Shown here piece by piece: positions 37,123 to 40,430 of a stretch of 64,000 bases of DNA (position 1 is its first letter; each line of letters opens with the position of its first letter). The stretch comes from Peredibacter starrii (lineage in GTDB: Bacteria > Bdellovibrionota > Bacteriovoracia > Bacteriovoracales > Bacteriovoracaceae): NCBI RefSeq assembly GCF_034259205.1, contig NZ_CP139487.1:3720001-3784000 (forward strand), written 5' to 3'. The position numbers were made by a program, and so were the translations under genes. The notes under the pieces were generated by a model. It did not search any database. It worked only from the letters and a program-made list of their open reading frames with translations, and had not been told where the DNA came from.

Positions 37123-37962
37123 ACCAACTGACTGGTAAACTTTACGTTTAGTCCATGTCCCAGTTTCTTGAGTACGGTACTGCTCATAAACCTGCCAACC
37201 AAATACAGTTCTTAGGTTAAATGTATCGTTGATAACGTATTCAGCAGCTGGATAGAGTCCGATTACGTTATGTGACGTGTTCTTATTGTTCTCGCTGAAA
37301 TCATACCAAGTACCCTGGAACGCTAGACCGTAAGAGAATCCAGTCGTGCCGTAGTCTTTCATGAAAACTTGTGAAAGGAAGTACGAAGCTTTGTAACCAA
37401 GATCAGTTTGCTGATTGTTTGTGATCCAAGTTGGCTTAAGTGTTGTCACTGATTGCATGCCAAAAACGCGATCTAAGTGAACATACTTCAAAAATGGGTC
37501 AGCGAAGTTAAGTTCTTGGCTGTTATCATCGAAGTTCTTTTTAAGAGCAGGGTTGTCTGTATCAATTTCATCATGGAATGGAGTTGTCATGAAGAAACCT
37601 GTAGACGCTGTAATACTGTCTAGAGCAGTAAGACGGTATCTAACACCAAGTTCACCCGCTAAACTTTGAAGTGTAAGGGCATCTTTACCATTCGTAATAT
37701 TTGGACGCTCAGGCTGAGTTGGGTTAGCTAGTGAACCACCCTGATAGTTGAAGTACATAGATGCACTCCACTTAGATAGTGAACCAGCATCTGCACGAAG
37801 ACGACGGTTAGTGATAACCTGGTCCGCCTCATCTGGCTTTGCTTCAGCAGGCTTCGTGATCGTTTGCTCTGCTTCTTTTTCTTTCTTTTCTGTTTTTGTG
37901 GCCTGCGCCATTCCCATTGTTGGGATAGCGATTAAAACTAACAATCCAATAATTTTCGACAT
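37006..37962 (-). CDS. Outer-membrane beta-barrel candidate
   Basis: The 318-residue product has a signal peptide (about 1-19), a charged Lys/Glu-rich stretch (about 22-50) and then alternating strands rich in Tyr, Phe and Thr (SASMYFNYQGGSL; LGVRYRLTAL; YGLAFQGTWYDF) up to a terminal strand ending in Phe (IAISANINLF), the usual end of an outer-membrane barrel. I do not recognise a specific family. It has an ATGTATGTCC leader with GGGGACAT ribosome-binding site and is monocistronic. C-rich codon choice for Asn, Tyr and Phe fits strong expression, as expected for an abundant envelope protein. Confidence 0.78.
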   Translation of the reverse strand: MSKIIGLLVLIAIPTMGMAQATKTEKKEKEAEQTITKPAEAKPDEADQVITNRRLRADAGSLSKWSASMYFNYQGGSLANPTQPERPNITNGKDALTLQSLAGELGVRYRLTALDSITASTGFFMTTPFHDEIDTDNPALKKNFDDNSQELNFADPFLKYVHLDRVFGMQSVTTLKPTWITNNQQTDLGYKASYFLSQVFMKDYGTTGFSYGLAFQGTWYDFSENNKNTSHNVIGLYPAAEYVINDTFNLRTVFGWQVYEQYRTQETGTWTKRKVYQSVGLGISVTRDIFLYPNIQFIPSDIRLDRTNIAISANINLF

Positions 37963-38077
37963 GTATGTCCCCTAATTAAAAAACCTTAATCTAAAATAAA
38001 GATTTTTCTCGTGATGTAAAGGCGATGCAAGATTATTTCAGAGAATCACTCAAGAAACCACATGTTATGGAGACAAA

Positions 38078-38184
38078 ATGACAACGATTTCGGTATAACG
38101 CGCCTACTTGAACAGGTGAAGCCCGGTGAAACTCCGGCACAGTCCCGCTACGGTGACCTTTAACTAGGAAGTCCGATCCCTCTC
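38078..38184 (+). ncRNA. Cobalamin (B12) riboswitch
   Basis: The conserved core is plain to the eye: GGTGAAACTCCGGCACAG (38125-38142) followed by TCCCGCTACGGTGA (38143-38156), matching the GGUGnnAnUCCGGnnCnGUCCCGCnACnGUGA consensus, and a B12-box-like GGAAGTCCGATCCCT (38167-38181). It lies on the plus strand 30 bases before the thioesterase ATG, with the GTGGAGG ribosome-binding site just downstream and no terminator hairpin, so control of translation by AdoCbl or a related corrinoid is more likely than attenuation. The 5' boundary is approximate. Downstream genes are a hot-dog thioesterase and a DUF4430-like secreted protein, not a standard BtuB or cob gene. Confidence 0.9.
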
Positions 38185-38212
38185 AAGCAATCAATTATCC
38201 CGTGGAGGAATC

Positions 38213-38578
38213 ATGCATCTCGAAGAAAGAAAATTGGCCGCACGCACTCGCGTTTTCAAAGCGGTCTTTCCTGGCGAAACCAATCATTACGACACACTCT
38301 TTGGAGGCACGGCCCTGCAATGGATGGATGAAGTCGCGTTTATCGCGGCCACTCGCTTTAGTCGTGAAAAAGTTGTGACGGTGAGTTCTGACAAAGTGAA
38401 CTTTAAAGTTCCTATTCCGGCCGGAAGCTTGGTGGAGCTGGATGCACAGATCACAAAAGTTGGAAACACCAGCATTGAAGTCAGTGTCGATGTCTATAAA
38501 GAAGATATGTATTCAGATAAACGCGAACTAGCGCTCCATGGGAGTTTTGTTTTAGTCGCCATTGGGAGAAAGAAATGA
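38213..38578 (+). CDS. Acyl-CoA thioesterase, hot-dog fold (YciA-like)
   Basis: Hydrolyses acyl-CoA to free acid and CoA. The 121-residue single hot-dog domain shows the family start VFPGETNHYDTLFGGTALQWMDE (cut: NHYDTLFGG, LQWMDEVA with the catalytic-type Asp), then VTVSSDKVNFKVPIPAGSLVEL (KVNFKVPIPAG) and ALHGSFVLVAIG. It is shorter than E. coli YciA but complete. First gene behind the cobalamin riboswitch, with GTGGAGGA ribosome-binding site, and overlapping the DUF4430-like gene in ATGA. The physiological acyl-CoA is unknown; control by B12 raises the thought of propionyl- or methylmalonyl-CoA metabolism, which is only inference. Confidence 0.92.
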   Translation: MHLEERKLAARTRVFKAVFPGETNHYDTLFGGTALQWMDEVAFIAATRFSREKVVTVSSDKVNFKVPIPAGSLVELDAQITKVGNTSIEVSVDVYKEDMYSDKRELALHGSFVLVAIGRKK

Positions 38579-39027
38579 AAAAGGTTTTTCTATTATTAAC
38601 TGCACTTCTCACATCAGAAGCGCAAGCTTTGACGATTGAATTCCTGGGACCATGTAGTCACAAACCGGTTCTTTCTTCGCAAGTAAAGAGCACACCTGCT
38701 AAATCAGTAGGCGAACTCACGATTGCGACTCTTGAAAGATTCAGAGCACCTCATGCAGGAAATGCCAGAGGACTAAATACGGCATTCAATACACCAATCG
38801 GAATGGATGCCATGGAAGTGATCAGTGATTATGAAATGAGAAGTTATGGCTGGTGTTACAGTGTGGACAATGCCATTCCAGAAGTATTTCCAGATGAGTT
38901 TCCAATCTCAAATAAGATTCAGAAAATCACCTGGTTTTACGGATATGCTCATTACTATAAGGGCGAGTGGCTGAGCCAATGTGAGCCGGCCTGGGAAATC
39001 AAGCCGGCCTTTCTTTGCATCAAATAA
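38575..39027 (+). CDS. Secreted DUF4430 (transcobalamin-like) protein
   Basis: The 150-residue product has a signal peptide (about 1-18) and a C-terminal segment SYGWCYSVDNAIPEVFPDEF then KITWFYGYAHYYKGEWLSQC, which matches by eye the DUF4430 domain related to the cobalamin-binding beta domain of transcobalamin. Three or four cysteines (GPCSH, GWCYS, SQCEPA, FLCIK) can form disulfides. The gene overlaps the thioesterase in ATGA and so is under the same cobalamin riboswitch, which supports a part in capturing corrinoid in the periplasm. No Ton-dependent receptor is adjacent. Family assignment from memory; function inferred. Confidence 0.75.
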   Translation: MKKVFLLLTALLTSEAQALTIEFLGPCSHKPVLSSQVKSTPAKSVGELTIATLERFRAPHAGNARGLNTAFNTPIGMDAMEVISDYEMRSYGWCYSVDNAIPEVFPDEFPISNKIQKITWFYGYAHYYKGEWLSQCEPAWEIKPAFLCIK

Positions 39028-39035
39028 TGTCCGAA

Positions 39036-40430
39036 CTAGTGAGCGTGACCACCCACGCTCACATCTCTACCCTCTTCAATCTCAACTTCCGATTCAATCA
39101 ATTTTCCACCAGAAGCATAGTCTTTATGAGAGTTAGTAGTGAGGACGACTTTCACTTTGTTCTTTCCTTGCGGAAGGATCACATGGGCCCACTCACTGTA
39201 AACACGTCCGACCTTCTTACCATTTACGAATAAATGAGCGTGGCCTTCACTTGGTTTATCACCAAGTCCACTGTTCTCCGGAGTGAACTTATAGTTAGTA
39301 GTTTGAATGTGCAGGTTCCAGCCACTCACAGGATCTTTCATTGGATGAACTGCAATTGTTGGAACCGGCATATCAGCAGGGATCTCAAACATTGGGTGAT
39401 CAACTTTTTTGGCCATTGATTCAGCATGAATCTCAGTTGCCATCTTCTGATAAGGGAAAGCAAGAAGAGCAAACAGAATCACAAAGTTCACGGCCGCGAA
39501 TAATGATCTTAACCAAAAAGCTTTATGGTAACGAATGGGTGCTTGATAGTAGTGACCAGGACCTTTCACAATAAACACTAATAAAGCGCCGTGAAGCATA
39601 GTGTGTCCAACCACCTCAGTTTTTCCGAAGAAACAAGTTGTAGTGAAGAACACAAGAGTAATCACAATCGCCAGTGGACGGTGAAGAAGACAGATAATAA
39701 GTAAATAACCAAGAGTAAATTCAACGAAGGCACAACTAATAAGGAAGAAGTCATGCGGTAGTCCCATTGTCAGGGCCGGAGCTTTTGCAAGAACCGAAAG
39801 ACCCCAGAATGGATAGAAGATTTTTTCGAAGGCAACCCAACAAAGTGAGAAACCCAGACCAGAGTACAACACCGGTAGATCAAGGTTTTTCAATCTCTCA
39901 TTTTTTAGATTTGAGAAGATGAGATAAAGACCAACTGCCGGATACACAACGTAGTCCAGCATGTGGAAAAGACCCTGGCTGAAAATACACATGACGTAGA
40001 GAAAGATCATCCCTAGGCCGGCCAGAATTGTTGTTTCTTTAAAAAGCAAACATAGTGCTAGAGCAAACTGAAACCAGACCCAAACTTGAGATGAAGCTGC
40101 GATTTCAGGTGCCACGACTGAGTCACCTTGCCACGACATAAGGAGTACTGCTCCCATTGTCACACGCATGATAAGAGGGCCATCTTCCGAGTATCGATCC
40201 AGGAACTCATTTGTTTTAACATAGAGAGTAGATCGATCGGCCAACTTATCCAGATAAACCATCAAAGGTAAGCTCACTACTGAAAGGAGGAACAGACCCC
40301 AAAAGGTTGGCGTATTAAGTTGGGAAAATGATAGAGGAACGGCATCAAAACTGTAATCACTGAACCATTTTACGTGTGCCATGGCCAGAGACGGAACGAG
40401 GGCAAGAACAAGGAACATGAGGGATTTCAT
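39036..40430 (-). CDS. Polytopic membrane protein with C-terminal periplasmic domain
   Basis: The 464-residue product begins with a signal-like helix (about 1-18), has about nine membrane segments (about 42-340) and ends in a His-containing extracytoplasmic domain of about 110 residues (DPVSGWNLHIQTTNYKFTPE, GHAHLFVNGKKVGRVYSEWAHV, and a terminal HAH). The end domain resembles beta-sandwich modules found in proteins linked to copper or other metal handling, but I cannot name the family. The membrane part looks like a DoxX-type or related bundle. It converges on the DUF4430-like gene with an eight-base gap and has no partner on its own strand. Confidence 0.7.
   Translation of the reverse strand: MKSLMFLVLALVPSLAMAHVKWFSDYSFDAVPLSFSQLNTPTFWGLFLLSVVSLPLMVYLDKLADRSTLYVKTNEFLDRYSEDGPLIMRVTMGAVLLMSWQGDSVVAPEIAASSQVWVWFQFALALCLLFKETTILAGLGMIFLYVMCIFSQGLFHMLDYVVYPAVGLYLIFSNLKNERLKNLDLPVLYSGLGFSLCWVAFEKIFYPFWGLSVLAKAPALTMGLPHDFFLISCAFVEFTLGYLLIICLLHRPLAIVITLVFFTTTCFFGKTEVVGHTMLHGALLVFIVKGPGHYYQAPIRYHKAFWLRSLFAAVNFVILFALLAFPYQKMATEIHAESMAKKVDHPMFEIPADMPVPTIAVHPMKDPVSGWNLHIQTTNYKFTPENSGLGDKPSEGHAHLFVNGKKVGRVYSEWAHVILPQGKNKVKVVLTTNSHKDYASGGKLIESEVEIEEGRDVSVGGHAH

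Follow-up and report, generated by a model that had tools for sequence, protein, structure and literature searches.

Several B12-dependent enzymes have B12-independent counterparts: MetE stands in for MetH, and NrdAB or NrdDG stand in for NrdJ. The remaining common B12 enzymes are the acyl-CoA mutases. In C. elegans, a B12-independent propionate shunt is induced at low B12 and disposes of propionyl-CoA. Genes under cobalamin riboswitches are turned off at high B12, and among them are B12-independent isozymes, as described in the available excerpts of PMC2211319 and PMC3766115. According to the excerpt of PMC3766115, their regulons are made up of B12 synthesis, the uptake of B12 and cobalt, and isozymes of B12 enzymes, and the excerpt of PMC2211319 adds a new target that is a fatty acid desaturase and not a thioesterase. 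Thioesterases are not among the cobalamin riboswitch targets named in the available parts of PMC8620254, PMC2211319 and PMC3766115, and in our searches of open-access full texts we found no report of a thioesterase under a cobalamin riboswitch. The cobalamin riboswitch and the YciA-type thioesterase are each known. The recurrent union of the two that we describe here, across the family of Peredibacter starrii (Bdellovibrio-like bacteria), the Bacteroidota and their relatives, and the Deinococcota, is unreported in the literature searched.

The window analyzed here is a stretch of 64,000 nucleotides from P. starrii (contig NZ_CP139487.1, positions 3,720,001 to 3,784,000), and the locus lies on its forward strand. 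A compact riboswitch for cobalamin (B12), expression platform included (38078-38212), recognized from alignments to RF00174 and RF01482, family conservation and covariation, is followed by a gene for a single hot-dog acyl-CoA thioesterase of 121 aa (38213-38578, hereafter TE). The start of a second gene (38575-39027), encoding a 150-aa exported-looking protein with weak similarity to DUF4430, overlaps the TE stop codon (ATGA). The aptamer (38107-38187) is closed by an outer stem, assigned by eye, between CUUGA (38107-38111) and UCAAG (38183-38187), with the core hairpins inside it, and the inner pairs covary. The expression platform, CCCGUGGAGG (38199-38208), contains the Shine-Dalgarno sequence GGAGG (38204-38208) and corresponds to a conserved CCCGnGGAG element, for which CCCGC in the L5-type loop (38144-38148) is a possible kissing partner. 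Similar to the Rfam cobalamin riboswitches (RF00174; RF01482, AdoCbl; RF01689, AdoCbl-II), the RNA has the shared core, covarying stems and a ribosome site in the expression platform. It differs from them in being compact, in falling below every gathering score and, as far as the excerpted accounts of their targets extend, in having a thioesterase as its target class.

No cobalamin-family match reaches the Rfam gathering score anywhere in the window. A search of 37900-38700 (801 bases) with an E-value threshold returned a sole RF01482 match, confined to the core (38118-38181; 40.7 bits against a gathering score of 50, E 6.5e-6), and RF00174, run on the whole genome, aligned from end to end of the model at 38078-38199 (21 bits; gathering score 31.5). 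An earlier note on this DNA, made from the letters of the sequence, had called the riboswitch and proposed a covariance search with RF00174; the match is present, but it falls short of the curated cut-off. Peripheral parts of the Rfam models are simply missing from the compact form. A stronger RF00174 match in the same genome (39.1 bits, over the cut-off) precedes a TonB-dependent receptor gene that is taken as btuB-like, and a further match of 9.5 bits (G000:C1:1664566) falls within an open frame of 635 aa and was regarded as a chance hit. Because the window RNA scores below gathering, the case for it rests on comparison across orthologous loci.

TE is present in 25 of the 129 family genomes, spanning 11 genera, and at 23 of these 25 loci a cobalamin-clan match lies upstream on the same strand, at or above gathering in 10 of them. 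The weakest matches are those at L084 (E 0.033) and L090 (E 0.0036), and the two loci at which no cobalamin-clan match was found upstream of TE (L080 and L081) come from one genus. Twenty-one of the 23 riboswitches were aligned; L091 and L096, which the core motif does not match, were left out and have a larger riboswitch, 300-430 bases upstream. The alignment has 14 consensus pairs, 9 of which show both-side (compensatory) changes. CCCGnGGAG, in which the first gene's Shine-Dalgarno sequence lies, is found in 17 of the 21 and is present too in the btuB-type riboswitch of P. starrii, and this conserved ribosome-site element indicates control of translation. CCGC in the L5-type loop, found in 20 of the 21, is near-invariant and could possibly kiss the GnGG of CCCGnGGAG. 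The sub-gathering scores would suit a degenerate relic without switching function, but such a relic is scarcely credible given that the core, the covarying stems and the ribosome-site element are conserved across the 21 aligned loci. Comparison across the family, through the 23 of 25 loci and the covariation, confirms the riboswitch despite its low score in the window. At two loci, L093 (1279-1492) and L095 (769-1017), a 7-aa open frame sits at the ribosome site of the riboswitch, with TE 80 to 115 bases further on; this frame is possibly a leader peptide or a coupling device.

Of the 26 genomes of the genus, 23 have an RF01482 match at E <= 0.5, and 30 loci were retained from this search, with a btuB-like gene behind the match in 23, TE in 2 and neither in 5. 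Three of these last five (L029, L030 and L032, reread as L075, L076 and L077) lie ahead of nrdG-nrdD, and in another (L058) the match is inside a different gene on the opposite strand. An RF01482 match of 21.7 bits (G004:C4:30325) was dropped, as it lies within a guaA-like frame (named by eye) on the opposite strand. TE orthologs occur in 5 of the 26 genomes, with a cobalamin-clan match directly upstream in all five, and within the genus btuB, nrdG-nrdD and TE all stand behind the same type of RNA. The nrdG-nrdD genes, for the class III ribonucleotide reductase that is a B12-independent backup, stand behind RF01482-type riboswitches in G003, G008 and G007, and a TPP riboswitch (RF00059, 61.6 bits; L062 2253-2355) is located near the TE locus of G007.

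The TE protein matches PF03061 (4HBT) with 70 bits, well over the cut-off of 20.6, in agreement with the hot-dog acyl-CoA thioesterase named in the earlier note, and the observation that no btuB, cob or metE gene stands behind the window riboswitch also holds. The nearest solved structures are 2gvh and 2eis (TTHB207). With these and 1yli (HI0827), all YciA/ACOT hot-dog thioesterases, TE shares its superfamily and a segment of the form FPxxTNHYxTLFGG...WMDE. Unlike that type, TE misses the cut-off of the YciA equivalog NF007970 (162 bits), three TE proteins scoring 40.6 to 52.5 bits, and in our tree it forms a branch distinct from the paralogs encoded alongside it. An identity as Kal, the 3-aminobutyryl-CoA ammonia lyase of lysine fermentation, was rejected (NF052388, 30.5 bits against a cut-off of 160).

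The second gene had been read as a possible periplasmic corrinoid binder, given a relationship between DUF4430 and the cobalamin-binding domain of transcobalamin. At the family level, the second gene weakly resembles the transcobalamin C-terminal domain and DUF4430 (PMC4350170), whereas the window copy is below the cut-off and B12 binding is without support. Against PF14478 (DUF4430), the window copy scores 14 bits (cut-off 23.8, E 0.073). Of eight relatives scanned singly, two pass, namely L019, with the same gene order as the window (37.9 bits), and L015 (26.6 bits), and 10 of 20 members of the second-gene family match at E <= 1, the best at 2.5e-9. The similarity to DUF4430 is therefore genuine for the family, although the window copy itself does not reach the profile cut-off.

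Joint action of the riboswitch, the thioesterase and a periplasmic corrinoid binder of the DUF4430 kind in capturing B12 from prey would be consistent with the ATGA coupling of the two genes and with L019, in which the same gene order accompanies a protein that passes the DUF4430 cut-off. The wider distribution of the second gene makes this highly improbable. The gene family occupies 22 places in the genus, one of them a fragment, and a riboswitch core lies near only two, in the window and in G012, whereas a DsbA-like gene precedes 10 of the 22, including the paralog in the P. starrii genome at 2970658 (L028 8003-9105). Furthermore, of the five genus units, two have the second gene downstream of TE, two have a GNAT acetyltransferase there, and the fifth has no co-directional gene. 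The second-gene family profile matched no solved structure in the PDB at E <= 10, and a single-sequence structure model of the protein was unusable, with a mean pLDDT of 33.9. We therefore do not adopt the corrinoid-binding role as the main reading, and the inclusion of the DUF4430-like protein in a B12 unit is not supported. The second gene is most likely a bystander; on the sequence comparisons, the riboswitch has TE as its conserved target and not the DUF4430-like protein. The DsbA-like partner is, by eye, of the 2-hydroxychromene-2-carboxylate isomerase type. In G001 (L069 26-757 and 4262-4714), a homolog of the window gene at 39036-40430 lies near a second-gene copy without riboswitch or TE, an arrangement which suggests that the second gene has been at the locus for longer.

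Beyond the family, we examined stretches of up to 3 kb on each side of the best 80 of 581 confirmed candidate TE relatives, mostly from Bacteroidota, among which two Bacteriovoracaceae MAGs (L098 and L099) are near relatives by TE. RF00174 is present at gathering in 46 of these best 80 (9, 6, 15 and 16 per 20), and in all 46 it lies upstream on the TE strand. The riboswitch is directly upstream of TE in Chryseobacterium, Pontibacter, Flavobacterium suaedae, Galbibacter and Fluviicola, metE is located between the two in Pedobacter, most Mucilaginibacter, Spirosoma, Siphonobacter and Taibaiella, and a TonB-receptor-like gene occupies this position in L164. Plasmids of Thermus carry the order riboswitch-TE-nrdB-nrdA, with RF00174 over the cut-off just upstream in both records searched, and the Thermus TE is TTHB207 in strain HB8 (PDB 2eis). 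Four Deinococcus plasmid records have TE-nrdI-nrdE-nrdF, and in Allomeiothermus TE is behind nrdI-nrdE-nrdF. Two of the four Deinococcus records, the D. radiodurans and D. ficus plasmids, were searched with RF00174, and neither showed a match upstream of TE-nrd. TE occurs without nrd in D. radiophilus and D. proteolyticus, and the upstream match in D. radiophilus reaches only 10.9 bits. A rationale specific to predators, as offered in the earlier note, finds no support in a link that is common to free-living Bacteroidota and Thermus. One of the loci (L123) is titled Glaciecola amylolytica, and its TE groups with Fluviicola-type (Crocinitomicaceae) sequences; its species label may be wrong.

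For an even sample, 345 genomes were drawn from the phylum to which a Mucilaginibacter genome belongs. The TE profile matched at E <= 1e-25 in 118 of the 345, with a gap between 2.1e-45 or better (37 genomes) and 1.9e-29 or worse, and the 37 were counted as TE carriers. RF00174 was run genome-wide on 31 of these, leaving out G351, G511, G198, G399, G202 and G383, in which TE is behind ribBA and no motif was seen. A match upstream of TE on the same strand, at 0.1 to 6.3 kb, is over the cut-off in 17 of the 31 and reaches 29.2 bits in two more, where 0.06 such cases would be expected by chance (71 matches in ~135 Mb). Three further loci (L189, L222 and L223) have the core motif only, and one (L197) has only metE beside TE. 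A B12 link is thus seen in 23 of the 37 TE genomes; in the remaining 14, TE is behind ribBA in 11 and has neither neighbor nor link of this kind in 3. The 11 (L204-L214) have TE directly behind ribBA, and no riboswitch was found there. Some riboswitches detected with Rfam, such as those at L124, L164, L171 and L198, escaped our exact-motif script, and the script picked up L189, L222 and L223, which Rfam did not report at E 1e-4.

The same sample contains several gene strings that join TE to known B12-independent enzymes (metE, nrdAB), an association seen in relatives and not in the window. These include riboswitch-metE-TE; riboswitch-nrdB-nrdA-TE in G282, G427 and G207, and also in G372 and G324 with riboswitch matches below the cut-off; riboswitch-nrdB-TE-nrdA in G194 (L243), with TE between nrdB and nrdA; and riboswitch-metE-nrdB-nrdA-TE in G451 (L240 421-7232), one apparent operon with three B12-shortage functions. 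Strand and spacing lead us to infer that these strings are operons. The genes of G451 alone were named with Pfam, those of the other strings by BLAST against the G451 genes or by eye. Riboswitch and TE are separated by a PF01902 protein in L191. As far as the excerpts of PMC3766115 and PMC2211319 describe the B12-repressed isozymes metE, nrdAB and nrdDG, TE has the same riboswitch and the same kind of operons, and it would follow the same low-B12 logic. TE differs from them in not being the isozyme of any B12 enzyme; it would relieve a blocked step instead of replacing it. Taken together, comparison of sequences gives good support for a riboswitch at this position, for its link to TE, and for TE sharing operons with metE and nrd.

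YciA-type enzymes are broad in substrate, and TE could be a general housekeeping hydrolase of acyl-CoA or fatty acid metabolism that hitch-hikes in metE and nrd operons which themselves need B12 control. That B12 control is not universal, with ribBA-TE lacking a riboswitch in 11 of the 37 carriers and no link in 3, agrees with such a hydrolase. Nevertheless, in the window family, Chryseobacterium and Pontibacter, TE comes first behind a riboswitch of its own. Additionally, the second-best thioesterases in 15 of the TE-bearing genomes, paralogs with 34-44% identity to TE of the window, show none of these links, with core motif, metE or nrd in the surrounding stretch in 0 of 15, compared to the core motif at TE in 9 of the 15 genomes (Fisher p 0.0007). 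In 116 loci the core motif occurs 60 times, against 0.4 expected under a first-order model. On a tree of TE, made from 135 rows hand-picked from the fetched loci and 121 columns and with many forks unresolved, we count 7 changes for metE (at least 3 forced by starred branches), 7 for nrd (at least 3) and 8 for the direct riboswitch (at least 2), so that each of the three links arose several times. These counts include faulty labels: L198 is marked as without link though a riboswitch was found directly upstream; L113, L115 and L197 are marked as riboswitch-metE with metE but no riboswitch seen; L191, L215 and L164 are marked as direct despite an intervening gene; and some nrd rows are without a detected riboswitch. 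Repeated attachment of TE to B12 control favors function over hitch-hiking, and we regard the housekeeping reading as rather unlikely.

The reading that we lean towards, with somewhat better than even confidence, is that the compact riboswitch controls translation of TE and that TE is a B12-shortage thioesterase relieving idle acyl-CoA mutases. With ample B12, the folded aptamer would hide the ribosome site CCCGUGGAGG and keep TE off; with B12 short, TE would be translated, placing it in a B12-shortage set with BtuB, MetE, class I NrdAB and class III NrdDG. A mutase without its cofactor would let propionyl-CoA, methylmalonyl-CoA or a related acyl-CoA pile up and trap CoA, and TE would hydrolyze the accumulated acyl-CoA, so that CoA is freed and the acid leaves the cell. 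The enzymes served would most likely be acyl-CoA mutases (methylmalonyl-CoA or isobutyryl-CoA mutase). A role of TE in B12 shortage is very probable, and propionyl-CoA or methylmalonyl-CoA as the substrate is an evenly balanced call. Clearance of acyl-CoA tied to B12 status, as suggested in the earlier note, remains the best fit to the wider comparative evidence, with the substrate conjectural. The C. elegans shunt likewise connects low B12 to the disposal of propionyl-CoA, but it belongs to an animal and employs transcription factors and several enzymes, as opposed to a single riboswitch-controlled thioesterase.

TE is probably an unrecognized part of how bacteria cope without B12. More tentatively, and with a little less than even confidence, we propose that in bacteria of at least three phyla riboswitch-controlled TE forms a third, unrecognized arm beside MetE and B12-independent ribonucleotide reductase, venting propionyl-CoA or methylmalonyl-CoA when the mutase is idle, with attachment to riboswitches, metE and nrd having arisen several times and G451 joining all arms. 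The recurrence of TE with metE and nrdAB would then show how bacteria deal with the acyl-CoA mutases, common B12 enzymes for which no simple substitute exists. Cultured carriers of the link include Chryseobacterium, Pedobacter and Thermus, and for 2eis (TTHB207), deposited as the structure of a hypothetical protein, a physiological setting is suggested.

The distribution of mutases says little about the substrate. PF01642 is matched in 25 of the 25 TE-bearing family genomes, but in 123 of the 129 family genomes overall; among the best relatives it is found in 47 of 49 TE-bearing genomes (counted from 50 of the best 80 loci), and in the phylum sample in 340 of the 345 genomes. Being near-universal, the mutase provides no test of the TE substrate through co-occurrence, and 104 of the 129 family genomes are without TE, though most have the mutase. 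No PF01642 match was found in the genomes of Siphonobacter (L171, riboswitch-metE-TE) and L136 (without riboswitch), nor in G179, whose TE diverges furthest among the 37 and lacks a riboswitch. PrpD, which marks a rival route, occurs in 0 of the 25 TE-bearing and 8 of the 104 other family genomes, a difference that is not significant (p 0.35). The Siphonobacter string without PF01642 is not predicted by the mutase reading, and it would be compatible with TE as B12-shortage gear for another substrate, such as isobutyryl-CoA or butyryl-CoA (of an IcmF-type mutase), a malonyl-type CoA (keeping methyl-branched fatty acids out of lipids) or a further cobalamin-linked thioester. We consider this alternative unlikely, as no positive evidence singles out any one of these substrates, and the crotonase-like gene (named by eye) ahead of TE in L105 does not discriminate between them. 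On its side, the P. starrii genome holds three PF01642 mutase matches, one of them in a 1061-aa frame of IcmF-like size, together with a MeaB gene.
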